Positions 2,128 to 31,200 of a stretch of DNA of 31,492 bases are shown here, piece by piece (position 1 is the stretch's first letter; each line of letters opens with the position of its first letter). The DNA is taken from IMG/VR virus record IMGVR_UViG_3300022847_000019, positions 1 through 31,492 of that record. One strand, given 5' to 3'. This stretch comes from a virus. The notes beneath the pieces were generated by a model. That model saw nothing but the letters and a program-made list of their open reading frames with translations. It did not search any database and was not told where the DNA came from. The position numbers and the translations under genes were made by a program.

Positions 2128-4124
2128 TGACTGACGCCGTATATGACATTGAAACATATCCGAACGTCTTTACGTTTGGTGTGTCAGAAGGTCGTCAGAT
2201 GTTTGTGATCTCACCGTGGCGGGATGATCGAGATGCATTGTACGACTACCTGATTGCCAGGTCACGCGACCCGTCATTCAGGTTGGTCGGATTTAACAAT
2301 GTCGGCTTCGATTATCCCGTCGTTCATGAGTTCATGAATATCAAAGTCGGCTATGAGATGGAGTCTGCCGCCACATTGGTGGATGCTCTCTATTCAAAAG
2401 CCATGCAGATTATCGAAGGTGATAATCGTTGGGAGAATATCATACCGCCTTGGGAGGTACGTATCTCGCAAGTTGACCTGTACATGATTCATCATTTTGA
2501 CAACATGGCACGTGCGACTTCACTCAAACTGTTGGAATTCAATATGCGGCGACCGTGTATTGAAGACTTACCGTTCCCGCCAGGTACCGAGTTGCGCGAG
2601 GAAGATTTACCGGTACTGATTGACTACAACTGGGAAGACATCGACGCGACTGATGACTTCCTGTCCAGATCCAAGGATATGATTGAGTTCCGTGATCAAA
2701 TGTCATCGACGTATGATCACGACTTCACCAACTATAACGATACTAAAATTGGGAAGCAGTACCTCATCATGGAATTGGAGAAGCAGCAACCAGGTTGCTG
2801 CTTTTCACGCGATGAGAGTGGTCGCCGGTCCCCCAACCAGACGCATTATGATGGTTTGCTACCGCTCTCATCCGTGATTTTCCCCTACATACGATTTCAT
2901 CACCCAGAGTTTCAGAGGATACTACGATGGTTCAACTCACAAAACGAAAACGTGGAGCCTCACGTTTATGCTGAAATCAATGGTTTCAAGATTGGACCGT
3001 TCGGTGTCGGTGGTTTACACGGCTCGATAACCGATGGGACTATTGGCTGTACACCTGATACGGCTATCATTGACATTGACGTAAAGTCTTACTACCCAAA
3101 CCTCGCCATTAAGAACCGTCTGTTCCCAAAGCATTTGAGCGAACGGTACTGTGACATCTACGAAGACATCTACGAGCAGCGCAAGTCCTACCCCAAAAAT
3201 CACCCCATCAACAAGGCGTTGAAGTTGGCGCTCAATGGTAGTTTTGGTGATAGCGGTAGTCCGTATAGCCCGTTCTTCGATCTGTCCTACCTGTACGGTA
3301 CGACGGTCAACGGTCAGCTTCTACTGTGTATGCTCATCGAGTACCTGGTGCCGATTCCCGGACTGGAGATGATTCAGGTAAACACTGACGGCATCACCGT
3401 AAAGATTCCACGCAATCAGATTGGGCGCATGCATGAGGTAATGGACTGGTGGCAGTCGTACACACAACTGGAACTTGAAGAAGTTGAGTACAATCGTATG
3501 TGGATCAGGGATGTGAATAACTACATCGCTGAGACTATGAGCGGTGAGATTAAACGTAAAGGTGCCTATGAGAACTTACCCCCTGCAGAACGTAACCCGG
3601 TGGGCTGGCATCAGAATCTCAGCGCGATAGTCGTACCGCTTGCAGTCGAGGCGCATTTCACACGGGGTGTCGATATTCGGCAATTCCTGGAAGGTCATCA
3701 GGACACAATGGACTTCATGCTACGCACCAAAATACCGCGCAGCAATCAACTGATGCTGGGCGACGAAAAGCTGCAACGAATCACCCGCTACCTGATTACC
3801 AAAGAGGGTAGTCAACTGGTTAAGATCGCACCGCCTACAGTCGGGTATCAGGTGGGTCAATGGAAACGGGCTAACAGCCTGACTGATGCCCACTACCAGA
3901 GTGTGATCAGTGAGTTGAGAGATGATGGTACTGAACTCGATTCTACCGGCTTACCGTGGGATGAACGTATCAATACGAAGAATAAAAGCAAGTACACCCA
4001 GCGGGAAACCAGTATAAACACTGGCTGGAACGCGACACCGTTTAATCGTTTAGACGGTCCGATAGATCGCAGTATAATAAACTATGACTTCTACCAGCAG
4101 GAAGCGGAGAAACTATTACTATGA
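2127..4124 (+). CDS. Family B DNA polymerase with 3'-5' exonuclease domain
   Basis: A 665-residue protein starting at the ATG in TAATG, with no strong ribosome site of its own, so probably coupled to the SSB. Exonuclease motifs: Exo I D7-I-E9-T, Exo II FNNVGFD (56-62), Exo III Y167-NWE-D171. Polymerase motifs: motif A D318-V-K-S-Y-Y-P-N, motif B K366-LAL-N370-G-S-F-G, motif C V418-N-T-D421-G. The last departs from the usual YxDTDS: the first Asp is Asn and the final Ser is Gly, while the Asp matching the essential catalytic one is kept. The length is between that of phi29-type polymerases and larger cellular ones. No terminal protein, primase or helicase is seen in the window, so the priming mode is unknown. 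ATGA overlap with the next gene. Confidence 0.93.
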   Translation: MTDAVYDIETYPNVFTFGVSEGRQMFVISPWRDDRDALYDYLIARSRDPSFRLVGFNNVGFDYPVVHEFMNIKVGYEMESAATLVDALYSKAMQIIEGDNRWENIIPPWEVRISQVDLYMIHHFDNMARATSLKLLEFNMRRPCIEDLPFPPGTELREEDLPVLIDYNWEDIDATDDFLSRSKDMIEFRDQMSSTYDHDFTNYNDTKIGKQYLIMELEKQQPGCCFSRDESGRRSPNQTHYDGLLPLSSVIFPYIRFHHPEFQRILRWFNSQNENVEPHVYAEINGFKIGPFGVGGLHGSITDGTIGCTPDTAIIDIDVKSYYPNLAIKNRLFPKHLSERYCDIYEDIYEQRKSYPKNHPINKALKLALNGSFGDSGSPYSPFFDLSYLYGTTVNGQLLLCMLIEYLVPIPGLEMIQVNTDGITVKIPRNQIGRMHEVMDWWQSYTQLELEEVEYNRMWIRDVNNYIAETMSGEIKRKGAYENLPPAERNPVGWHQNLSAIVVPLAVEAHFTRGVDIRQFLEGHQDTMDFMLRTKIPRSNQLMLGDEKLQRITRYLITKEGSQLVKIAPPTVGYQVGQWKRANSLTDAHYQSVISELRDDGTELDSTGLPWDERINTKNKSKYTQRETSINTGWNATPFNRLDGPIDRSIINYDFYQQEAEKLLL

Positions 4125-4555
4125 CCACAATTGCATTCGACGGGAAACTACTAGCGGCTGATACATTGATTATCGAGGGTAGTGTGATTATCGGCTACCA
4201 ACCAAAAGTCTTTAAGGTGAAAGGTGGTTATATCGGGGGTGTTGGTCGGGCAGATGATATTTCAGCTTACGTCGAATGGGTGCGTGGTGGCTTTGGTGAG
4301 AAACCTGAACTGACGGAAGGTGAAGATTTCATCGGAATGTTCATCACTAATGGCGGTCAGGTGTTTGAGTACGGTGAAAAGCTAAATGGTTTTGCACTAC
4401 CGCCTGGAATGTACGCATGGGGTGCGGGTGGACTGATGGCACTCGCCGCAATGCGGCTGGGTATCTCAGCACCGGATGCAATACAGTTTGCAATCGATAA
4501 CACGATTGATTCAGGCGGTACGATTGACGTATTTGAGGTAGTTCGACATGGTTGA
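4121..4555 (+). CDS. HslV/proteasome-beta-like Ntn hydrolase
   Basis: A 144-residue protein beginning MTTIAFDGK. After Met removal, Thr2 would be the N-terminal nucleophile, as in HslV (which begins TTI). D14 in AADT and K29 in PKVFKV sit where HslV has its conserved Asp and catalytic Lys. A Gly-rich WGAGGLMALAAM stretch (100-111) and the ending DNTIDSGGTIDVFEV match the C-terminal half of phage proteasome-like proteins. The length is close to a minimal HslV subunit (about 175) but shorter. No HslU-type ATPase is visible, so it may use a host unfoldase or act on its own. It overlaps the polymerase by 4 bases and the next gene by 8 bases. Substrate unknown. Confidence 0.8.
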   Translation: MTTIAFDGKLLAADTLIIEGSVIIGYQPKVFKVKGGYIGGVGRADDISAYVEWVRGGFGEKPELTEGEDFIGMFITNGGQVFEYGEKLNGFALPPGMYAWGAGGLMALAAMRLGISAPDAIQFAIDNTIDSGGTIDVFEVVRHG

Positions 4556-6050
4556 TACGGTAACAATACCCACCCTGGAACTTCAGGCAGCGATGATCCA
4601 GTCTGGTGGCAATAAGTCGAAGGCAGCGGAAATTCTTGGCATTCACCGACAAACCTTGATGAAACTCCTGGCTGAAAAGCTAACTACTACGCGCTACGTT
4701 GTCACCAGCGCCGTTAACAATACGAAGGTATTTGCGCCTTTCTGGAAAGCCCTGCAGTACTACTGCGATGAAAACGAAGCAGAGTTAATCGTCATCCCGA
4801 CAAGGTACAAAAACCCTTCCGCAATGAGGATGACAGATCCTATATGGTATGACTCTGCGATTATGTCTCACTTCTGCGAGGTCGAGCGGGAGTTGAATTC
4901 CCAGGTGATAGTCATGGGTGACGTACCTATTCAACCGACCGCATCGGACCCACTTTCATCTTTGGACCCACACGCAAAAGGCAAGTGGGCTATCTTTGGT
5001 CATCCACAGATTGAAATGCGAATGGTCCCAGCCAGGATGGACAGTACGCCTCCCATGCTGCACACCACAGGGTCAGTGAGCGAAAAGTCATATTCAGCCA
5101 GTAAGTTAGGTAAGAAAGCTCAACTTCATCATACCTATGGGGCGGTCGTGATCGAATGTGTAGGCGACAAGGCTTACGTGAGGGAGTTGGTCTCAAACGA
5201 TTCAGGTGAGTTCTACGACGTTGCTGGTGGAGTTAAGAAATACTCACCCAAAGGTATTGAGGAACTACTACGGATTCCGGCACTGGTGACTGGTGATGAA
5301 CATATCGCTAACTCGTCTGAACGGGTGATGAATGCGACTTATTACAATAAGGATTCTATTACCGCGATTGCTCGACCGGAGGAAATTTACCGGCATGACG
5401 TTTTAGATTTCTTCTCAAGGAATCACCATCACACCGATCCCATCCAGAATTTTGTGAAGTATCTGCAGGGAACCGATGATGTGAAGGCAGAGGTTGAATC
5501 AACTATCCGAAAGATCGAGGAAACCACCCCAGCGGATTCAGTGAGCTACCTGGTGGGTAGTAACCACAATGAAGCCCTGGGTCGATGGATGAAGGAATCG
5601 AATCCGAAAGTTGATCCGAAAAATGCGCGGTTCTTCCATGAGCTTTCATCAGTGGTTTACCGACTGGCAGAAGAAAAGCTGACGCACAAGATTGACCCGT
5701 TTGAAGTCTATGCCCGAGAGATTATGGGTCTGGCCGACAGGGTGAAATTCTTAGGCAGGAACGAAGGGCGAACGGTTGAAGGCGTAGAGGTTTCATACCA
5801 CGGTGATAAGGGCGCGAATGGTGCGCGAGGATCACTAACGACCTTCGCGAAAAGTTCATCCAAGACAGTCACTGGACACACGCATGGACCGGGAATCAAG
5901 AAAGGCGCATGGGGTGTGGGTCATTCAACGGACGGACTGGATTACCAGTCAGGTCTATCCAACTGGTTTAACACTCACTGCCTGATTTATCCGAACGGTA
6001 AGCGGCAGTTAATACACGTTTTATCTGATGGAACATGGAGAGCATCATGA
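4548..6050 (+). CDS. HTH plus calcineurin-like metallophosphoesterase, possibly T5 A1-like
   Basis: A 500-residue protein with GAGG placed well before the ATG. Residues about 8-45 form a Fis-type helix-turn-helix (GNKSKAAEILGIHRQTLMKL). A metallophosphoesterase signature follows: G249-D250-E-H252, H284-D285, GSNHNE (337-342), H418-G-D, and GHTH (443-446). The C-terminal GANGARGS and YPNGKRQLI segments resemble phage proteins of the T5 A1 type, which act in DNA transfer and host DNA degradation; that link is from memory and less sure than the fold. The HTH could target the enzyme to DNA. ATGA overlap with the next gene. Confidence 0.75.
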   Translation: MVDTVTIPTLELQAAMIQSGGNKSKAAEILGIHRQTLMKLLAEKLTTTRYVVTSAVNNTKVFAPFWKALQYYCDENEAELIVIPTRYKNPSAMRMTDPIWYDSAIMSHFCEVERELNSQVIVMGDVPIQPTASDPLSSLDPHAKGKWAIFGHPQIEMRMVPARMDSTPPMLHTTGSVSEKSYSASKLGKKAQLHHTYGAVVIECVGDKAYVRELVSNDSGEFYDVAGGVKKYSPKGIEELLRIPALVTGDEHIANSSERVMNATYYNKDSITAIARPEEIYRHDVLDFFSRNHHHTDPIQNFVKYLQGTDDVKAEVESTIRKIEETTPADSVSYLVGSNHNEALGRWMKESNPKVDPKNARFFHELSSVVYRLAEEKLTHKIDPFEVYAREIMGLADRVKFLGRNEGRTVEGVEVSYHGDKGANGARGSLTTFAKSSSKTVTGHTHGPGIKKGAWGVGHSTDGLDYQSGLSNWFNTHCLIYPNGKRQLIHVLSDGTWRAS

Positions 6051-6988: not shown

Positions 6989-7483
6989 ATGGACATATAC
7001 AAAATGATACCACTACATCAAAAACCGATTGCAGATTTCACACTGAACGAACTATCTCGATACAACACGTTTCGAAAGTCCAAACGGGCTGATATCGTCT
7101 ATCAGGGTCAGAAGTTCGGCATAGGCTTTTGGGAGACTGTACTGGAAGACGGCCGCAAATTCCCGTTCCTGGCGCTCACTGTGTGGACACCAGATGGCTG
7201 GCGAGTACTGGACGTCATGTCGCCCTTATGGGACTTGAACGACCTGAGTATGGATACTGGAGAGCCTAAGAAGGATCTGTCCACCTATATGTGGTGGATA
7301 GCTGAGAATTTCAATCCCGTCATCAAGGCATACTTTGAGGAGATCGGTATGGTAGAAGAAGCGACCGGCGTGGAAGATGCAGACGGCGACGGGGAAATCG
7401 CTGAATGGGAGAAGGTCGTCGAACTTTTGAACAGGAATCCCAAGATTGTCGATGGGTTCCTTATCCTGGAGGGTGAATTGTGA
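6989..7483 (+). CDS. Unknown protein with a canonical EF-hand loop
   Basis: A 164-residue protein with ATG at 6989 (a second ATG at 7004 is possible; neither has a clear Shine-Dalgarno). It follows a 24-base gap. The N-terminal half has beta-like segments (DIVYQGQKFGIGFWETVLED, FPFLALTVWTPDGWRVLD). Residues 130-141, DADGDGEIAEWE, match the EF-hand consensus DxDxDGxIxxxE at every ligand position, with helix-forming sequence on both sides (AYFEEIGMVEE before, EKVVELLNR after). A calcium-binding hairpin is therefore likely. I do not recognise the protein as a whole. It overlaps the lipoprotein gene by GTGA. Confidence 0.75.
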   Translation: MDIYKMIPLHQKPIADFTLNELSRYNTFRKSKRADIVYQGQKFGIGFWETVLEDGRKFPFLALTVWTPDGWRVLDVMSPLWDLNDLSMDTGEPKKDLSTYMWWIAENFNPVIKAYFEEIGMVEEATGVEDADGDGEIAEWEKVVELLNRNPKIVDGFLILEGEL

Positions 7484-7716
7484 GAATCATTATCGCACTG
7501 GCACTACTGCTATCCCTTGGAGGTTGCGCTGAGTTCGGGGCGTTCAAGTCCGGGGTTGCAACTCACGGGGCCGATGCTTCAGACCAGACGCTGGAAGCAA
7601 ACCTATGGTATCTGTGCAACGCATCTTCGGTGGGATCGATAAAGCGTAGGTTCAAGACCGTTGAAGAAGTCGCAGCATACAATGTAATTTGCCCCGGCGT
7701 ATTACCTGGAAGCTAA
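7480..7716 (+). CDS. Small lipoprotein (78 residues)
   Basis: GTG start in a GTGA overlap, with GGAGG 7 bases upstream. A short signal sequence MRIIIALALLLSLGGC ends in a lipobox (LGGC, Cys16), so the mature protein should be lipid-anchored. The rest (SDQTLEANLWYLCNASSVGS, then IKRRF and a final Cys in VIC) resembles a family of small phage lipoproteins that often lie near lysis genes. It could be an outer-membrane spanin component or a superinfection-exclusion lipoprotein; the sequence does not decide. It is the last gene of the + strand operon and overlaps the opposing gene by 15 bases. Confidence 0.8.
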   Translation: MRIIIALALLLSLGGCAEFGAFKSGVATHGADASDQTLEANLWYLCNASSVGSIKRRFKTVEEVAAYNVICPGVLPGS

Positions 7717-7959
7717 TGCCTCGGCTGCTGCCAGTACTCGTTCCTTATGCGCTCTCACCCGTTCTGGTGTATGCAGTGTGGTGGCGAGTTGTTTCACCAA
7801 CACATCTTCGTCGTTATCGATAGGATCGCCAGGATGAATGACACTCCGATGTATGGGTGTCGTGAACGTCTGACCGTCCTGCTCAACAATGTTGACGTAC
7901 CCACGTTCGATATTCCCGGTTACCGGATCAATCGCTATCTTGTGTAATTGTCGTTTCAT
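7702..7959 (-). CDS. Small unknown protein at the end of the late operon
   Basis: 85 residues, ATG at 7959, GAGG about 9 bases upstream, one base after the stop of the fibre gene. The N-terminal half reads like a short beta domain (IAIDPVTGNIERGYVNIVE), and the C-terminal half is a charged helix (PERVRAHKERVLAAAEAL). No family recognised. Its place directly after the fibre gene would suit a fibre chaperone or assembly protein (inference). Its 3' end overlaps the converging lipoprotein gene by 15 bases. Confidence 0.65.
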   Translation of the reverse strand: MKRQLHKIAIDPVTGNIERGYVNIVEQDGQTFTTPIHRSVIHPGDPIDNDEDVLVKQLATTLHTPERVRAHKERVLAAAEALASR

Positions 7960-17312: not shown

Positions 17313-17567
17313 TTAAATTACCGTAATTGATCCAATTGAATCGGTCGGGTCTGCTTCTTCGGCCCGGGCATCTGGGAATGTAGGCTCCTCAACGGGTACA
17401 AACGGAAAGTCTTGAGGATGTCGTTCGTTAAAGGCTTCAGGGATCACAATATGTCCCGTCCACTCTTTGTCCAACTCATCGATTTTACGTTTAAAGCCGG
17501 TACGATCACAAATCGTATTGGATGACCCCATGACGAAATGGTTGGTGCTTGGATGTCGTGTAGCCAT
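17313..17567 (-). CDS. Small conserved phage protein with RHPQDF motif
   Basis: 84 residues from the ATG at 17567, chosen over longer starts because AAGGG lies upstream and the longer form would run back into the preceding gene. Key features: CDRTGFKRKIDELDKEW, WTGHIVIPEAFNERHPQDF and a Pro/Glu-rich tail. Proteins with the pattern TGFK...L...W.G...RHPQDF are common next to head or tail genes of many phages, but I know of no settled function. The single Cys and compact motif hint at a small structural or assembly factor. Confidence 0.72.
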   Translation of the reverse strand: MATRHPSTNHFVMGSSNTICDRTGFKRKIDELDKEWTGHIVIPEAFNERHPQDFPFVPVEEPTFPDARAEEADPTDSIGSITVI

Positions 17568-17568
17568 A

Positions 17569-17880
17569 TTACTTACCCTTCTCGATTGCAATCGTGACAG
17601 CATTCAACACTTTCGAGGTCATTAACTCCATACCCTCTTTGAAGCCTTGCAACTCACCAATCTCCCGATTGATGCTTACTAGCATGTCGTTCTTAACCTT
17701 GTGATCCTCCAGACATTCCGTAAGCCGCTTCTGAACGTCAACGTACCTTTCTGCTTCTGCTTCTTTGTCTTTCTGCATAGTGGTCCATAAATACCGACCC
17801 ATCGTCCCTATTACCAGGCACAACGTAGATACACCACCCACGACTTGTAGGTTAGTGAGCATCAATCCTGAAGGTTCCAT
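17569..17880 (-). CDS. One-TM coiled-coil protein, candidate inner-membrane spanin or holin-like
   Basis: 103 residues from the ATG at 17880, which has AAGGA at the right distance; the ATG at 17886 lies too close to it. A single membrane segment (about residues 12-30, VVGGVSTLCLVIGTMGRYLW) is followed by a charged heptad-rich helix (EAEAERYVDVQKRLTECLED, INREIGELQGFKEGME). One N-terminal anchor with a long periplasmic coiled coil is the topology of inner-membrane spanins (Rz), and a 41-residue lipoprotein lies nearby, as Rz1 would. An XhlA-like or other holin-associated membrane protein is an alternative. Confidence 0.7.
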   Translation of the reverse strand: MEPSGLMLTNLQVVGGVSTLCLVIGTMGRYLWTTMQKDKEAEAERYVDVQKRLTECLEDHKVKNDMLVSINREIGELQGFKEGMELMTSKVLNAVTIAIEKGK

Positions 17881-17889
17881 AATCATTCC

Positions 17890-18273
17890 TTAATTAGTAA
17901 TCTCATGCCAAGGGTCACCTTTATTAAACCCACTACATGAAATCCACTTGTAATCCAAATCATCTCTTAGGCACACCCAAGTAGAGAGGTTATCTATAAT
18001 CCAGCCTTCTACTTCGAGAACCAAGTGACCAGAATTCCAATCGTTCTTATCCGTCAAACAGAACACCAGTCTCGAAGGTATGCCAACCTTCCGGCACTGA
18101 TAACGAGCGGCTAGTGCGTGTCCGTCACAATCGTCTTTAAATCCTTTGCGGGCAGCTTCATCCATATCTACCCAATGTTCTGGCATTCCACGCTGTTCTT
18201 GGTCGGATGTATAGTTAAACCGCCAGCCGACATAGTTTTTTATTTCTTGTAAGTCACGCTCTCTAACAGTCAA
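17890..18273 (-). CDS. Transglutaminase-like cysteine peptidase (BTLCP, peptidase C93/LapG-like)
   Basis: 127 residues from the TTG at 18273, which has GGAGAG five bases upstream; a GTG at 18291 would add six residues and overlap the lipoprotein gene more. The catalytic triad of the family is visible: Cys49 in DDCDGHALAARYQCRKVGIP, His83 in SGHLVLEVEGW and Asp94 in IIDN. The N-terminal VGWRFNYTSD and a PEHWVDMDEA segment also match. LapG, the known member type, cuts the adhesin LapA in the periplasm. No signal peptide is seen, so the enzyme would stay inside until lysis unless carried otherwise. It lies between a lipoprotein and a one-TM coiled-coil gene, which suggests a part in lysis or release. 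Confidence 0.8.
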   Translation of the reverse strand: MTVRERDLQEIKNYVGWRFNYTSDQEQRGMPEHWVDMDEAARKGFKDDCDGHALAARYQCRKVGIPSRLVFCLTDKNDWNSGHLVLEVEGWIIDNLSTWVCLRDDLDYKWISCSGFNKGDPWHEITN

Positions 18274-18388
18274 TGTTTCTCTCCGGGTCACATCCTATCG
18301 GTGGCGCGACTTCTTCTCCAGTCTCAAAAGGAGTTGGAACCCTTACCGCGCACCCTGACAGCAATAGCAGTATCAGGAGAGTCCTCAT
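18263..18388 (-). CDS. 41-residue lipoprotein, candidate outer-membrane spanin (Rz1-like)
   Basis: The ATG at 18388 overlaps the TGA of the preceding gene (ATGA) and the stop is TAG at 18265-18263, giving MRTLLILLLLSGCAVRVPTP followed by 21 more residues. A short hydrophobic signal ends in a lipobox (LSGC, Cys13). The mature part is about 29 residues with several prolines (VPTP, VAPP) and two Cys, like Rz1-type outer-membrane spanins. The stop lies inside the next gene, so all three are coupled. Too short for most ORF filters, but the overlap, lipobox and position make it convincing. Confidence 0.8.
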   Translation of the reverse strand: MRTLLILLLLSGCAVRVPTPFETGEEVAPPIGCDPERNIDC

Positions 18389-18933
18389 AGGATATGCGCT
18401 ACCGTATCATCGCCAAATGTCACAAAGAACTGGCTGGGCGTTACTGTGTTGCCCTCGTCATCGACGTAAGGCGTGTAGTCATAGATTGATTGGTACAGCG
18501 CCAGCATGTCGGGATCGCCAGGTACTTCTTCCATAATCGGATTGGGCGTGTAGGTGGTCTGTTCTTCAACGTAATCACCAGCACCGTACACTGGAACCTG
18601 CTGATACCCATCAATCACATCGGTTGTTTCGTATGTGATGACGTCCCGGCCAGCCACCGTTTCGATCGGCTCTCCGAATTGTGGCACCTCATCAATAACA
18701 AGTTGCTGCGTATAGCCGAAGATCGTTTCATAGTCCGTTACTGTCACAAAGGGCAGTTGCTCCAGAATCTCTAAGCCGTCCTTGCTGGACAGGATAATCA
18801 TGGAGGTGTTGCCGTTCCTGTGAACGTGAGCGCCTGAACGACCGTCAATCATGCCGCGATAGGGTGACTCAATGTCTACTGCGCCGGTAGCTTTCAGGGC
18901 TGTCATGTCAGTGCATATGCTTACGATGGTCAT
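18385..18933 (-). CDS. Unknown acidic protein between adhesin and lysis genes (182 residues)
   Basis: ATGA overlaps at both ends (with the LamG gene upstream and the lipoprotein downstream). The N-terminal part is a short alpha/beta segment (ATGAVDIESPYRGMIDGRSG, then STSMIILSS-like strands: NTSMIILSSKDG). The rest is acidic and rich in Tyr, Val and Pro (DVIDGYQQVPVYGAGDYVEE), with no membrane segment. No family recognised. It may be a chaperone or accessory for the LamG protein just upstream (inference from order). Confidence 0.65.
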   Translation of the reverse strand: MTIVSICTDMTALKATGAVDIESPYRGMIDGRSGAHVHRNGNTSMIILSSKDGLEILEQLPFVTVTDYETIFGYTQQLVIDEVPQFGEPIETVAGRDVITYETTDVIDGYQQVPVYGAGDYVEEQTTYTPNPIMEEVPGDPDMLALYQSIYDYTPYVDDEGNTVTPSQFFVTFGDDTVAHIL

Positions 18934-21317
18934 AGTGCTGCCACCTGTGAGTCGGTCAATCGACGGCTGAATATCTTGACGTTACGGATGTTGCCGTTGG
19001 CTTGCTGCGAGTCGTTGTAGCTAGACCCTACGTGGATAGTCGTTACGGTGGGCGTCGATGCGGAGGAATCAGCGCCCACCGAAACCCCATCCATGTACAA
19101 CTCAATGTCATTTGTGTTGATAACGAAAGCGATTTTGTAAGTCGTCCCAGCAACCATCTGAATGGTCGAAACAATGTTAGCTTCTGTCGATCCACCACTT
19201 CTCAACAACAACCCTAAACGCCCCGTGACCGCCTCTTGATAAACCAGCGCCCGATTATTATTTGTTTCATCATCAACCGACAAGATGATTTTTGAGTTGA
19301 GCGAGGTGCTATCGTTTGGTGTGAAATCAACACTAGCCGTCATCGGGAAGCTATCCGCATTACCTGCCGCTGAGTAAGTCAGCACACCAGCATTCCGCGC
19401 CACTGCTGTACCTTCTGTTGCTATGTACGGGGTGGGGAAGGTTCCTGCTTCTACTTGTGCGCCCCAGACTAGAATAGAGGAGGTGCCGTCTAGGTCTACT
19501 GTTACGTCACCGTCTGCGTCTGCAACGTATATTCTAAATCCACCAATTACATCCGTAGTCGATTGGTAGACGGTCCAAACCCTGTACCATCCGTCACCTA
19601 CAGACTCTATTCCATAATCAGAAACAGCAGCTCCGGCAGTACCCGCCGCACCGTCGGCGAGGTCGAAATAAACGCCTTCGCTTTCATCGTAGTTGATATG
19701 TGAAACCAGCACCCAAGACAGTTGGTCGGCCTTCACATATGCAGACCATGTGTAATCCGTGTTAGTAACGATGGTCAGGGCTTGGTTAAGATACACTGCC
19801 CCCGTACCAGTAGCCCCATCATCAACCAACCGCCATGCAGTCTTGGTTCCATCAGGAGCAATGGCGTAATTAGCCGCTGGAGTGGCGTTAACGTCAGTCC
19901 AAGTGGTCGTAAACGCATTGCTTTGCAGGATGACATTAGTCCTAGCCTCATGTGTCGAAATACCGAGGGGGCCATCTGCGTCCCATTTTGCAGGGATGTC
20001 TACACCGAATGTCTTGGCTGCACCGTTGTTAGTCCATGTCTCACCCGTTGTAGATGAAGCCCACGTTGATCCGGTTACATGGTCATTGGCGTTGAAGTCA
20101 ACAGCAGGGGTGGCTGTGGGGTCTGTGGAGGCTATGACTACTGCACGGGAGATTTTGCCGGCGAATAAAGCCCCTGATCCAGTGTCATTCGACCCAACTT
20201 CAACAGGAGCGGTGGAATCAAAAATTCCGGCAGATACATGAGAAATGTCGGCATTCCCCAACTGCACCCAATTAATATCTGACAGGCTTGTACCGAGAGG
20301 TTGGTCTGATGTGTAAAAATTGGTTGTGTTAGCAACATCGTTGAAGGTTGTTCCGACCCAATGCCCTGTACCGTTAGCAAACCCTGTAATAGCATCCGAC
20401 TCGCTGCTCACCACAAGGGCTGTGCCATCAGCAGATGTAAATAATTTAAGACTACCTGTGTCGTCCAATCTCCACGAAAAAGACCTCTGATTGGCGGCTT
20501 GAATATACTTCGCCACAATCACCATGTCGGCAGCGGGCGTCCAATCTTCTAGAGCTATCCAAGCAACCCATGTGGTGTCACTCGTTCCATTACCGGAAGG
20601 GATAGCCGCACTATCAGGCGTAGATACATACGTCCCGCTTACCCCTGTGAGTTCAACAAATTGTGAGTTGCTTGAGTTTATCGCAGGGCCGGTATTCTCT
20701 GTCACGATGCCGGTGGATGATACTGTATTGCCGTTGTGGGTGCTGAATGATTTAGTGCCGTCGATACCGGAACCATGCCAAGGGCTGCTTAGGACGCCGC
20801 TTGAAACATACTCTGATGGATTCTGGTTAATACTCCCCGTCAAATTCTCCATCTGGTAATCAACAACCGTGGCAACGGAAGCGGTAGCAATGATTGTACC
20901 CGCGCCCGTAATGGTCAGGGTCTTCGATGTTCGGCTGGATGCATTAGAGGTCAGTGTTCCGGTAGAGCCTGTCGCTGTACCCGTGAAGGTAACAACGCCT
21001 GTGCCTGCACCCATCGAGAACACATAGACCGTATCAGCGGCTACCGTGATCGTGTCCGTTGCTGCTACAGCCAGTGTCGCAGAACTCGCGTTGGCTATAA
21101 CATTCTTAACCGTCCGGTTACCCTCTAGCGCAGCCTGACCACTGGATGCGGTCTTCTGCATTCCCTGATAGTAGGTGTAGGTCTCGTCTGTGGCGCGGGT
21201 GAAGGTGGCAACATTGGAGCCGTGGGCAATACGAGGGTTGAGATTCGTGTTTAGATCAGCACGAAAGCTCTGTAGCAGTTTGTTACTACCTCCACCTACT
21301 CGACGATGACGGTTCAT
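18930..21317 (-). CDS. Large LamG/concanavalin-like adhesin
   Basis: 795 residues from the ATG at 21317 (one-base overlap with the upstream TGA; a GTG at 21320 is possible). The N-terminus (SFRADLNTNLNPRIAHGS, VATFTRATDETYT) is typical of this phage family. Two concanavalin/LamG-like jelly rolls are visible: about 215-400 (TWVAWIALEDWTPAADMVIV, FSWRLDDTGSLKLFTS) and about 655-795 (YKIAFVINTNDIELYMDGVS). Between them, about 455-640, lies a carbohydrate-binding-like domain (DYTWSAYVKADQLSWVL). Likely binds host-surface glycan, from the capsid or the tail. It sits between the head genes and the gp4/gp10 genes instead of next to the fibre, so a capsid-attached fibre is possible. Confidence 0.8.
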   Translation of the reverse strand: MNRHRRVGGGSNKLLQSFRADLNTNLNPRIAHGSNVATFTRATDETYTYYQGMQKTASSGQAALEGNRTVKNVIANASSATLAVAATDTITVAADTVYVFSMGAGTGVVTFTGTATGSTGTLTSNASSRTSKTLTITGAGTIIATASVATVVDYQMENLTGSINQNPSEYVSSGVLSSPWHGSGIDGTKSFSTHNGNTVSSTGIVTENTGPAINSSNSQFVELTGVSGTYVSTPDSAAIPSGNGTSDTTWVAWIALEDWTPAADMVIVAKYIQAANQRSFSWRLDDTGSLKLFTSADGTALVVSSESDAITGFANGTGHWVGTTFNDVANTTNFYTSDQPLGTSLSDINWVQLGNADISHVSAGIFDSTAPVEVGSNDTGSGALFAGKISRAVVIASTDPTATPAVDFNANDHVTGSTWASSTTGETWTNNGAAKTFGVDIPAKWDADGPLGISTHEARTNVILQSNAFTTTWTDVNATPAANYAIAPDGTKTAWRLVDDGATGTGAVYLNQALTIVTNTDYTWSAYVKADQLSWVLVSHINYDESEGVYFDLADGAAGTAGAAVSDYGIESVGDGWYRVWTVYQSTTDVIGGFRIYVADADGDVTVDLDGTSSILVWGAQVEAGTFPTPYIATEGTAVARNAGVLTYSAAGNADSFPMTASVDFTPNDSTSLNSKIILSVDDETNNNRALVYQEAVTGRLGLLLRSGGSTEANIVSTIQMVAGTTYKIAFVINTNDIELYMDGVSVGADSSASTPTVTTIHVGSSYNDSQQANGNIRNVKIFSRRLTDSQVAAL

Positions 21318-21715
21318 CACGCATACTTCTTGAAATGAACCAATATGTCATATGATGCGCCGTTAACTGCGCCATTGGTGGTCAGTAAAACATCACCAGT
21401 GAAACCAGTCGCCTGGGGATCTACTTGATCAATACCTGCCCGGTCAAAATAACCGTTGCCGGTACCCAGTAAGGCGATAGGCTGGTTGGTGTTGGCATCC
21501 CACAGTAAGTCAACCCGCGAGAATCCTTGAACATCATATTCAATAGATTCAACGGCGAGTTGAGTTAACGTAGAAAATCCGTCAGGACCGGTAAGAGTGG
21601 ATACGTCAACTTTTGTGACTGCACTCTCACCGGTCCCATCAGATCGGTTAGTAAGATGAAGCACGTAGTTACGCGCCCCATCATGTGACACTACATTGGT
21701 TACAGTATCGGCCAT
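21317..21715 (-). CDS. Conserved virion protein of unknown function (132 residues)
   Basis: TAATG overlap with the beta-helix gene and TGATG with the LamG gene. The beta-rich sequence, with the conserved block NRSDGTGESAVTKVDVSTL, then GFSRVDLLWDANTNQPIALL and an ending in YDILVHFKKY, belongs to a family I have often seen beside capsid genes in aquatic phages, annotated as hypothetical. The likely role is a minor capsid or fibre-base protein. No enzyme motif. Confidence 0.7.
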   Translation of the reverse strand: MADTVTNVVSHDGARNYVLHLTNRSDGTGESAVTKVDVSTLTGPDGFSTLTQLAVESIEYDVQGFSRVDLLWDANTNQPIALLGTGNGYFDRAGIDQVDPQATGFTGDVLLTTNGAVNGASYDILVHFKKYA

Positions 21716-24233: not shown

Positions 24234-24770
24234 CTAGGACTTGGAGCCACTTTCGGCGAGCCGCATTTCGATATTTAAATCAGCTTGACACTCAGTTGGA
24301 CGCGGTATGATTTGCGCTAACATCGTATCAACATCATCGAGATTGAGAAACGCTGCCAATCTCTGTACTTCTTCTCGTTGCGTCAATAACCGCTCAAACG
24401 AGATAGTCATTATTTCCCCGTATTTGGACAACCGCTCTCTGGCGTCAAATCTTTCCTTTCGATGTAATCCAGCAATAAGATCCACATAATGATCATCGAT
24501 ACTGGCACCCATCGAACGAAGGAACTTGACTTCTGACTTAGCTTGCTCAGTCGCATCTCTGTCCATCCACACTGTGCGGTATTCACCTTTTGGAATACCA
24601 ATCACTAAAGGTTCTAGTATTTTGACACTAAAACCATCAGGAACGCAAATGTTTCTGTTACCCGTTTCAAACATCGGGTACGAACCCGCTGTCGGACCAC
24701 CGACGGAATGGATCATCTGCATCACCAGTGATGAGCCACAACGACCGAATCCGGCAACCAGGTTGATCAC
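24234..24770 (-). CDS. P-loop sulfotransferase inside the head operon
   Basis: 178 residues, GTG start in a GTGA overlap. The P-loop that binds 5'-phosphosulfate is at the N-terminus: GFGRCGSSLVMQMIHSVGG (7-25). A 3'-phosphate site of the PAPS-dependent type follows in VWMDRDATEQAKS (R71, D72, S79), and the C-terminal SFERLLTQREEVQRLAAFLN matches the conserved helix region. The fold call is solid; the acceptor is unknown and may be host-surface sugar, a virion protein or a small molecule. Family members occur in phages from aquatic samples next to capsid genes. The ribosome site AGGAG is very close to the GTG; the CTG at 24761 would have ideal spacing, so the start is uncertain. Confidence 0.82.
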   Translation of the reverse strand: MINLVAGFGRCGSSLVMQMIHSVGGPTAGSYPMFETGNRNICVPDGFSVKILEPLVIGIPKGEYRTVWMDRDATEQAKSEVKFLRSMGASIDDHYVDLIAGLHRKERFDARERLSKYGEIMTISFERLLTQREEVQRLAAFLNLDDVDTMLAQIIPRPTECQADLNIEMRLAESGSKS

Positions 24771-25282: not shown

Positions 25283-26166
25283 TAATCTTCTCCTGTTAAT
25301 TTTTCGGCAAATAGATCGGCGTCGAATTTATCACCGAATTTTTCCTTTAGTGCGTCTGCAACTGATTGAGCCGAGTTCACATCATGTGGATTACGACTGC
25401 CAATACTGATATCTGACAAGTTTGTTTTACCTTTTCCCTGGGTTTCAGTGGTTGTTTTACCGGGCGCTTGCTGACGACCTCGCTTGGGGGATTTAAAGAT
25501 ATCAGGATTGAGCTTTTTCGCATCATTGAATGCGACGTTCCACGCTTTTTTAATCTGACTGTCACTGAGAGCGAGAGCCCCGTTGTTACTTAATCGCTCG
25601 ATCAGGGAGTTGTACAGTGCACCATGATCGGTGGCGAACTCCTTGTTGTAGTCATCATGCTCCGTGTCTGTAAGTGGTGTTTCGGCAATCAAACTCAAAA
25701 GCGTTTCGTTTTTCGGGATTGGCACATTGCTATCGTGTTCTTCTAACCGCTGCTTCGCATCCAGTGCAGCCTCGACATCTTCATCGTCTTTAGCCTGTTC
25801 GATTTCAGCCAGTAAGTCCTTTCGTGCCTGGGCTGCTGCTGACTTCTTTTCGCTTTCGGTATATTCAGCCACTTGACTGACCATCGTACTGAGTCGTTTC
25901 AACTCTTTCTTCTGGTCTTTATTCTCCTGGATTCGATCATACTCATGCGAATAAGCGTTTTTACCCTTGAAGTCGTCGGGATCTTTTCCGGCTTCAATCC
26001 ACTGTTCATAGCTCATGTAGCCGGGGAGTTCATCGACTATCGGCTCATCGACTATCGGCTCATCGACTATCGGCTCATCGACTATCGGCTCATCGACTAT
26101 CGGCTCATCTTCATTATTCAGAAGTTCATCCAAGGTCGCGTCGATATTTTCCTGTGGCGTACTCAT
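25282..26166 (-). CDS. Scaffold protein with a repeated acidic N-terminus
   Basis: 294 residues, ATGA overlap upstream. Residues 21-45 are five tandem EPIVD units from a 15-bp DNA array, giving an acidic arm. A YEQWIEAGKDPDDFKGKNAY segment follows, then a long charged helix (KKELKRLSTMVSQVAEYTES, AARKDLLAEIEQAKDDEDVE-like heptads) and a basic C-terminal part (FKSPKRGRQQ). A highly charged, coiled-coil-rich protein between portal and capsid genes is the standard pattern of a phage scaffold (P22 gp8-like role). The GroES-like gene precedes it directly. Confidence 0.8.
   Translation of the reverse strand: MSTPQENIDATLDELLNNEDEPIVDEPIVDEPIVDEPIVDEPIVDELPGYMSYEQWIEAGKDPDDFKGKNAYSHEYDRIQENKDQKKELKRLSTMVSQVAEYTESEKKSAAAQARKDLLAEIEQAKDDEDVEAALDAKQRLEEHDSNVPIPKNETLLSLIAETPLTDTEHDDYNKEFATDHGALYNSLIERLSNNGALALSDSQIKKAWNVAFNDAKKLNPDIFKSPKRGRQQAPGKTTTETQGKGKTNLSDISIGSRNPHDVNSAQSVADALKEKFGDKFDADLFAEKLTGED
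26031..26105 (-). repeat. Five perfect 15-bp tandem copies in the scaffold gene
   Basis: CATCGACTATCGGCT on the + strand, five identical copies from 26031 to 26105, plus a partial one at 26106-26109. On the - strand they encode EPIVD five times. Confidence 0.96.
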
Positions 26167-26555
26167 TCGATACTCCCGAAAACATCCTCGTCATTGATGA
26201 AAATCACATACTCGCTGCTACCGGGTGGGAATTCGATTCGCGCACCTTCATATCGCCTGAACATGACAACATCCCCGATCTTGCACCAGGGAGCCGCATC
26301 GATATCCCGACGCATATTCTTGTAGGCGTCCGGTCCGATATCCAGGACAACACCGTAGTTACTACCCCGGTCCTCCCTCTCCTTCTGATCATTGGACTTG
26401 GTGACAAATCCCGCACCAGCTAGTGTTTGGAATTTATCAGCTTGTGCTGCTTCAAGTCCGGCTGTTACGTCGATGGGGTCGATGAGTACCCGGTAGCCAC
26501 GCGCTTTAATGGTACCTGTATCAATCTTCTTCTTTTGTTCGTTGTGGTTCTTCAT
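26163..26555 (-). CDS. GroES-like co-chaperonin
   Basis: 130 residues, longer than a typical GroES (about 97). Family marks: ARGYRVLIDPIDV (18-30), YGVVLDIGPDAYKN (67-80), APWCKIGDVVMFRRYEGARI (88-107) and the ending INDEDVFGSIE (120-130). The region that forms the GroEL-binding mobile loop is replaced by a long charged stretch (about 32-66) without the usual Ile-Val-Leu triplet. It overlaps the preceding small gene by 35 bases and the scaffold by four. T4 gp31 shows that phages can supply their own co-chaperonin for capsid folding; the same is inferred here, as it sits next to scaffold and capsid genes. Confidence 0.83.
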   Translation of the reverse strand: MKNHNEQKKKIDTGTIKARGYRVLIDPIDVTAGLEAAQADKFQTLAGAGFVTKSNDQKEREDRGSNYGVVLDIGPDAYKNMRRDIDAAPWCKIGDVVMFRRYEGARIEFPPGSSEYVIFINDEDVFGSIE

Positions 26556-30297: not shown

Positions 30298-30899
30298 TCG
30301 CCTTCCACTGTTACTGGTTCACCACTACTGGGGGGTGCAATACCCATCTTCTGTTGGTATTCAAGAATTTTAGCTTTACGTTCGTCGGCGCTGAGCAGGT
30401 TGACATTATGCTCAACGGTTTTGGTTTCTTTCCAGTCTTCTGGTTTACGATTGTACAACCAGATCGTAGCAGCCTTGGTGTCAGGTGGGTAATACTTAGT
30501 GATGTCGGTCACTGTGATATCACCCTTATGATTGGAGATATGCACATCAGGATGCTTGTAACCGACCGCCCGTTGGTACAGTGCCGTTTCAACTTCCGCG
30601 TTAGCGATATCATAGCCACAACGGATAGCATGATCAAACTGGGGATATATTTTACGCCATCGGCTGAGTGTCGAATGACTGATGTTTAATAACTCAGCGA
30701 TCTTGGATTCTTTAGCGCCTAGCGCCGCATAGTTCTCCGCCTGTTTGATGACCGCATTACCCAGGGGTGTCGCAAGCAGGTTGGCGGAGGGATTGACAAT
30801 CGCTTCCAATACTTCTGGATCCGCCAGATATGGACTATTAGCGTAACGCTCGGGTTCAGCCAGATAGCGTTCCACGAACAATGTCTTATCCTTGTCCAT
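30294..30899 (-). CDS. Terminase small subunit
   Basis: 201 residues. A helix-turn-helix for DNA recognition is visible at about 58-86 (ESKIAELLNISHSTLSRWRK), followed by a helical oligomerisation region (DIANAEVETALYQRAVGYKH) and the family ending YYPPDTKAATIWLYNRKPED followed by a flexible tail. This order matches terminase small subunits that select the packaging site. It overlaps the endolysin by 14 bases and the large subunit by four. The ribosome site is weak, so its synthesis may depend on reading through the endolysin gene. Confidence 0.83.
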   Translation of the reverse strand: MDKDKTLFVERYLAEPERYANSPYLADPEVLEAIVNPSANLLATPLGNAVIKQAENYAALGAKESKIAELLNISHSTLSRWRKIYPQFDHAIRCGYDIANAEVETALYQRAVGYKHPDVHISNHKGDITVTDITKYYPPDTKAATIWLYNRKPEDWKETKTVEHNVNLLSADERKAKILEYQQKMGIAPPSSGEPVTVEGE

Positions 30900-31200
30900 A
30901 CACCGGCGACCAGTGAATATGGAAATGGTTTGACTCCAGGATCACCACGAAGTCGGCGCCCAGCAGGTCAGCTATGGCCTGTCGGGTGACAACGGGGTCA
31001 GCGACAGTACGTGATCTCACATCAATGGCATCGCCGCGATAATGGGCTGAACGGTTTGCGGTGTGCTTGTACACCTCACTACCGCTGGTCACTACAGTAT
31101 CCACGCCTTCGCTCTCGAAGATGGATGCAATCTGTATCAGCGCGACCAGTATTGGCTGTCGGCAATTGGCGATCGATGCGCCTTTCTTAACTAAAATCAT
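30886..31200 (-). CDS. Endolysin-like M15 peptidase
   Basis: 104 residues, the first gene after the late promoter. Zinc ligands of the M15 (VanY / L-Ala-D-Glu peptidase) family are visible: H53 and D60 in AHYRGDAIDVRSR, and H94 in SNHFHIHW (90-97). Conserved helices around ILVALIQIASIFES also fit. It would cut peptide cross-links in peptidoglycan and acts as endolysin or as a virion-associated peptidase. No signal peptide, so release would need the holin or the membrane protein of this phage. The start has only a weak ribosome site (GGGAAAG). Confidence 0.82.
   Translation of the reverse strand: MILVKKGASIANCRQPILVALIQIASIFESEGVDTVVTSGSEVYKHTANRSAHYRGDAIDVRSRTVADPVVTRQAIADLLGADFVVILESNHFHIHWSPVYGQG

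Follow-up and report, generated by a model that had tools for sequence, protein, structure and literature searches.

A tiny lipoprotein gene and a signal-less C93 peptidase gene conserved as a pair in phages: a possible two-part envelope peptidase

The locus in a podovirus-like phage

The window, the whole 31,492-base stretch of DNA analyzed, is an entire IMG/VR virus record of a podovirus-like phage. Profile searches identified genes for a portal, a GroES-like protein, a capsid, an SU10-type adaptor and a head-closure Hc3 protein. The GroES/Cpn10-like gene (26163-26555, 1.8e-5) adjoins the portal gene, as it does in Alcaligenes phage QDWS535 and the Manatee Spring phages, and a sulfotransferase-like ORF with a weak match (24234-24770, 0.0025) lies within the structural gene cluster. 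A 796-aa tail protein with a LamG domain (PF13385, 8.3e-13) is encoded at 18930-21320. The ORF at 4121-4555 has, by eye, the look of an HslV/proteasome-type peptidase, without a Pfam match. Close relatives of the window were sought with the adaptor protein, which returned one distant locus, and with the head-closure protein, which returned none.

The three tightly linked ORFs recognized in the first-pass annotation are real, and all are on the minus strand: a lipoprotein gene (18263-18388), a C93/BTLCP cysteine peptidase gene (17890-18276) and a gene for a protein with one membrane segment (17569-17886). Two further minus-strand genes are mentioned for context only. The gene 5' of the lipoprotein-peptidase pair (18385-18933) has a syntenic counterpart, 49% identical, next to the L013 pair on its upstream side, and the small protein ahead of the adaptor gene (17313-17567) is homologous to QDWS535 7623-7907.

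The lipoprotein, the noncatalytic half of the pair, is 41 aa long (18388-18263; MRTLLILLLLSGC followed by AVRVPTPFETGEEVAPPIGCDPERNIDC), with the lipobox LLSGC and the tail PPIGCDPERNIDC. Residue +2 is Ala and not Asp, which predicts export of the protein and attachment to the outer membrane; the lipobox and the Ala at +2 fit the small outer membrane lipoprotein of two-component spanins. Its earlier label as a candidate Rz1-like protein found no support in the PHROG search: the match to phrog_456 was weak (E = 0.13) and covered the signal peptide only, and the profile is nonspecific. When phrog_456 was used to survey the pair-bearing records for spanins, it was again nonspecific and overlooked the annotated Rz of PhiXhv-15. 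Another small lipoprotein, of 78 aa and with no relatives found, is encoded in the early region of the window (7480-7716).

The listed peptidase ORF (18291-17890, 133 aa) opens at a GTG at 18291. The TTG at 18276, giving 128 aa, is the likely start, because the homologues L012/L013 have an ATG at exactly this position and a GGAG lies 6 to 7 nt upstream of the TTG; the start region reads MTVKKSDLQ in L012/L013 and (M)TVRERDLQ in the window. The end of the lipoprotein gene and this start overlap by 14 nt (18263-18276), which suggests that translation of the two genes is coupled. The peptidase matched PF06035 with an E value of 1.4e-9 (38.3 bits against a curated cutoff of 27) and also matched Transglut_core in Pfam. 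The earlier description of a transglutaminase-like peptidase with an intact Cys/His/Asp triad was borne out. The catalytic Cys (codon 18127-18129) and His (codon 18025-18027) are invariant in a 20-sequence alignment, and the Asp (codon 17992-17994), in a DN motif, is replaced by Glu in a few relatives. The peptidase has no signal peptide, and a hydrophobic N terminus was found on none of the split peptidase ORFs; the export signal of the split pairs sits on the separate lipoprotein, not on the peptidase chain. The window peptidase is therefore filed here, on its predicted features, as a variant of the C93/BTLCP domain family and not as a canonical exported BTLCP. Neither a LapD-like gene nor a substrate of the peptidase was identified in the window.

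The hydrophobic stretch of the third protein, of 105 aa, is plain by eye. No relatives of this protein were found in phages, IMG/VR viral contigs, Pfam or PHROGs, and no holin family matched it in Pfam or PHROG. Comparison with small membrane proteins encoded close to the pair in L021 or in QDWS535 showed no similarity either.

Conservation and gene context of the pair

An IMG/VR profile search yielded 36 peptidase loci, nearly all of which have a lipoprotein with a Cys-pair tail just upstream. In a rule-based scan for lipobox ORFs of 35 to 95 aa ending in C-x(4-10)-C, 21 of 30 loci had a match at the start of the peptidase, and only 4 matches lay elsewhere in the 645 kb scanned; a lipoprotein outside the scan rule was recognized by eye in L019, L020, L007 and L048. 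The mature lipoprotein block (PTPF...GC) is under purifying selection at the protein level, judging from a pooled pN of 0.23 against a pS of 0.77. Given the scan counts and this selection, the association of lipoprotein and peptidase is not due to chance. About 20 distinct viral lineages, among them Xanthomonas jumbo phages, T4-like marine contigs and a Mu-like prophage, have a gene for a tiny lipoprotein with such a tail that either overlaps the start of the peptidase gene or directly adjoins it.

Nearest to the window are L012/L013, whose lipoprotein ends in MRLIVLLLMLSGCESVPTPFETGVEVAPPGGCIEGRARGVDC, and L014 and L016; the window peptidase is 73% identical to that of L013 and 66% and 63% identical to those of L014 and L016, respectively. 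Downstream of the pair, L012/L013 have a 113-aa ORF and then the terminase and portal genes. In L016 (3778-4889), the pair is next to a class 3 lipase gene (PF01764, 7.7e-13), an ORF that is SNase-like by eye and the gene of another small lipoprotein. In the Xanthomonas jumbo phages LucasX and PhiXhv-15, a lipoprotein of 54 or 47 aa ending in PPPGCVDLRKRGGAC or PPPGCVELRKQGGKC has its stop codon overlapping the start of a signal-less C93 ORF, and in LucasX the two genes stand by themselves between oppositely oriented genes and have a predicted terminator of their own. At the L039 locus (4423-4976), the lipoprotein gene lies one gene upstream, with an unrelated gene between the halves; L040 to L043 share this intervening gene and likely have the same separated arrangement. 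The pair occurs in the cultured phages LucasX, PhiXhv-12/15/16 and, as judged by peptidase similarity, Erwinia Ep032. A tblastn search with peptidases of the T4-like group found no additional cultured phages.

A lone peptidase with no adjacent lipoprotein occurs in Vibrio N4-like phages and in L033. In the Vibrio N4-like phages (L010 and L011, 5965-6357), the C93-like peptidase gene is surrounded by tRNA genes, with RNA polymerase genes upstream. The pair was also found in a Thauera MAG (L048, contig JANJTU010000131.1, 7700-8333), where the ORFs listed within 8 kb include no obvious phage genes and the contig encodes a cytochrome and GGDEF, peptide deformylase and TonB-receptor-like proteins. 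Only 1 of 29 Thauera genomes contains the pair, and the other Thauera matches are single-chain BTLCP-like ORFs. This copy may reflect domestication or a misbinned contig. In a second genome of the order Burkholderiales, the pair lies between a long tail-fiber-like ORF and a Mu-like Com gene, and because of these neighbors the copy is probably part of a prophage.

Lysis genes are located beside the pair in several lineages. In L029, a GH108 endolysin and a lysis-S holin gene, both with HMM support, precede it; in L024, an M15 endolysin gene and a holin-like gene with three transmembrane segments follow it. GH19 at L022 and Amidase_2 at L021 are HMM-supported neighbors as well. In PhiXhv-15, two glycoside hydrolases (endolysins) and Rz/Rz1 are encoded upstream of the pair in one same-strand run; since this phage has Rz/Rz1, the pair cannot be a mere replacement for spanins. 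Four lineages have a lysis gene within 1 kb (P = 0.016) and five within 3 kb (P = 0.18), values that are suggestive only, the null being built on record lengths and both distances having been chosen after the data were seen. No HMM-supported lysis gene was found near the pair in the window. A short ORF at 30886-31200 has an M15-like signature (SAHYRGDAIDV ... HFHIHW) and a weak endolysin match (0.062); it is possibly an endolysin gene, and its nearest phage relatives are microviruses.

Split and fused forms of the peptidase

A profile of 20 split peptidases matched the PDB sequences of LapG (4u65, 5.5e-5; 4fgo, 1.9e-4). Both halves are encoded in one ORF in two viruses, L021 and L022; the first relative found, L001/L021 (one contig), has a lipobox, a linker and a C93 domain in a single ORF. 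The AlphaFold model of the L021 fusion (pLDDT 79, about 60 in the tail region) gave six PDB matches below 1e-3, all to LapG (best 4u65, 9.7e-7), so that the transglutaminase-like LapG fold was recovered through a fused relative. The model of the window peptidase (pLDDT 82) gave weak papain/transglutaminase-like matches only.

Single-chain bacterial BTLCPs with ordinary signal peptides, such as those of Rhizobium (L049), L064 and L065, have a Cys pair just ahead of the catalytic domain. When the lipoprotein was added to the peptidase, the PF06035 match was extended in L028 and L029 and slightly raised in L044, and it was not improved in the window or in L026. There is thus only partial support for counting the lipoprotein tail, in a strict sense, as part of the PF06035 profile. 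Since the addition helps in some loci only, it is plausible, rather than proven, that the tail is the missing N-terminal segment of the BTLCP family. That the lipoprotein and the peptidase are two halves of one architecture had been overlooked in the first-pass annotation.

How many genes make up the unit bears on two alternative explanations. One of them takes all three window genes as a spanin-like lysis unit, with the one-membrane-segment protein as the inner partner. The genes are adjacent in the window, and small membrane proteins also adjoin the pair in L014, L018, L021 and L036, but these are unrelated to the window protein or unassigned, and the pairs of L012/L013 and LucasX are without any membrane protein. 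The charge distribution of the window protein, assessed by eye, favors an N-out orientation with a cytoplasmic C terminus, and an inner membrane type II coiled-coil partner, as in spanins, is not kept with the pair. We consider this explanation very unlikely. The earlier proposal had named peptidase homologues without the membrane partner as evidence against it, and L012/L013 and LucasX have just such homologues. Because the membrane protein has no relatives and the pair occurs without it, the conserved unit, as judged from sequence comparison, is the lipoprotein-peptidase pair and not the trio. What stands of the three-gene release unit is the conserved lipoprotein and C93 peptidase, with lysis genes beside several of the pairs; the membrane protein as a third component is dropped. 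Cleavage of an adhesin and processing of a spanin, the roles put forward for the peptidase in that proposal, would be putative functions of it. The other explanation reduces the pair to a single gene, which either looks split because of a sequencing error or yields one lipid-anchored peptidase through programmed frameshifting. The overlap of the window ORFs and the natural fusions in L021 and L022 would fit it. However, the peptidase frame relative to that of the lipoprotein is +1 in the window, L014, L016, L030, L036 and L038; -1 in L018, L019, L020, L024, L026, L027, LucasX and PhiXhv; and 0, with stop codons between the halves, in L028, L044 and L045. Neither sequencing error nor one conserved slippery site yields all three frame relations, so both were rejected, single-lineage frameshift events aside. 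The foreign gene between the halves in L039 and the peptidase's own ribosome site and conserved start position also argue against a single gene, which is the least probable of the alternatives considered here. The simplest reading of the frames would be separate, coupled translation of two halves, and the split of a BTLCP into two genes is well supported.

A possible role in the host envelope

LapG acts on adhesins; for LapG proper the target is a LapA-type adhesin, and cleavage is controlled by LapD. The explanation that we favor, with a confidence that stops short of an even chance, is a lysis-timed two-part envelope BTLCP, that is, a split LapG-type C93 peptidase. The phages would have divided a BTLCP into two coupled genes. 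The product of the first would have a signal peptide and a lipid anchor, followed by a short linker rich in Pro; at the end of this linker would come the Cys-pair segment, which in single-chain BTLCPs lies ahead of the catalytic domain. This product would wait in the outer membrane. The second gene would encode the catalytic domain alone, which would stay in the cytoplasm because it has no signal. At the end of infection, holin lesions would open the inner membrane and admit the catalytic half to the periplasm together with the endolysin. There it may dock on the lipoprotein tail and may cleave an envelope or surface protein, helping the progeny to exit. The probable site of action is thus the host envelope, at a late stage of infection, both target and timing being inferred. 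The strongest hint is that the catalytic half lacks an export signal and would meet the lipoprotein only after the inner membrane has been breached. Counted against docking are the low pLDDT of the L021 tail and the absence of a PF06035 gain in the window and L026, and against the explanation as a whole the weak statistics of lysis-gene proximity, the spanins of PhiXhv-15, the lone peptidases and the Thauera copy. That the protease is split between compartments and assembles only at lysis, the outer membrane lipoprotein tail in the periplasm completing a holin-released cytoplasmic peptidase, is a more doubtful part of this proposal.

Two other explanations separate the peptidase from lysis. 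The peptidase could be an auxiliary gene product that, like LapG and HvyA, modifies the host surface and has no part in lysis. By remodeling adhesins, the capsule or other structures on the surface while infection is under way, it would be of advantage to the infected host or would prevent superinfection. HvyA, a periplasmic BTLCP acting on capsulation, controls capsulation and phage sensitivity in Caulobacter (PMC4241560), in river-virus genomes BTLCP is described as the auxiliary metabolic gene that occurs most often (PMC11283719), and a chromosomal copy of the pair occurs in the Thauera MAG. However, a catalytic half without an export signal could not reach the surface before the inner membrane is opened, barring an unknown route, and we regard this explanation as unlikely. 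Far less probable still is a superinfection-exclusion lipoprotein of the Cor/Llp type, its translation coupled to that of an unrelated peptidase which processes phage proteins inside the cell. The L014 lipoprotein does match the PHROG Cor family (2.7e-4), but over residues 1 to 23, the signal peptide only. The conserved part of the lipoprotein is instead the Cys-pair tail, which corresponds to the segment in single-chain BTLCPs and in the natural fusions, and the coupling to C93 is kept in distant phages.

The two-part envelope peptidase would bear on the open question of spanin-less phages with orphan lipoproteins. In a survey of 677 phages, 91 had no identifiable spanins, and 31 of these 91 had a lipoprotein without an inner partner (PMC6139136). 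If true, a compartment-split protease would give phages, perhaps including some called spanin-less, a proteolytic outer membrane or egress step besides endolysin and spanin. The idea is testable because cultured phages with the pair exist. No published report of a split lipoprotein/C93 (BTLCP) pair in phages was found in a literature search that did not extend to most subscription journals.

The pair can be compared with several known systems. Two-component spanins (Rz/Rz1 and T4 PseT.3/PseT.2) likewise have a tiny outer membrane-type lipoprotein with a Cys near the C terminus, whose gene overlaps that of its partner, sometimes within a lysis cassette (PMC6139136). In the pair, however, the partner is a soluble peptidase instead of an inner membrane coiled-coil protein, and PhiXhv-15 has spanins besides. 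Vasohibin-SVBP, which is among the weak fold matches, also combines a transglutaminase-like cysteine protease with a tiny partner protein, but it is eukaryotic and cytosolic and serves as an analogy only. Phage BTLCPs have already been catalogued as auxiliary metabolic genes, and those of river-water viruses probably belong to the same peptidase family; the main text of that report does not discuss a lipoprotein partner, a signal peptide or a split (PMC11283719). The recurrent lipoprotein partner, together with the lack of an export signal on the peptidase, points away from an auxiliary metabolic gene and suggests an envelope enzyme in two parts that stay separate until infection is at a late stage. 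The closest likeness in the catalytic half is to BTLCPs of the LapG/HvyA type (PF06035, MEROPS C93), with which it shares the fold and the Cys/His/Asp triad, and some single-chain members also have the Cys pair ahead of the domain. Known members consist of one chain that has a Sec signal and is soluble in the periplasm, whereas the phage pair has the signal and the Cys-pair segment on a separate lipoprotein and a catalytic chain without a signal.
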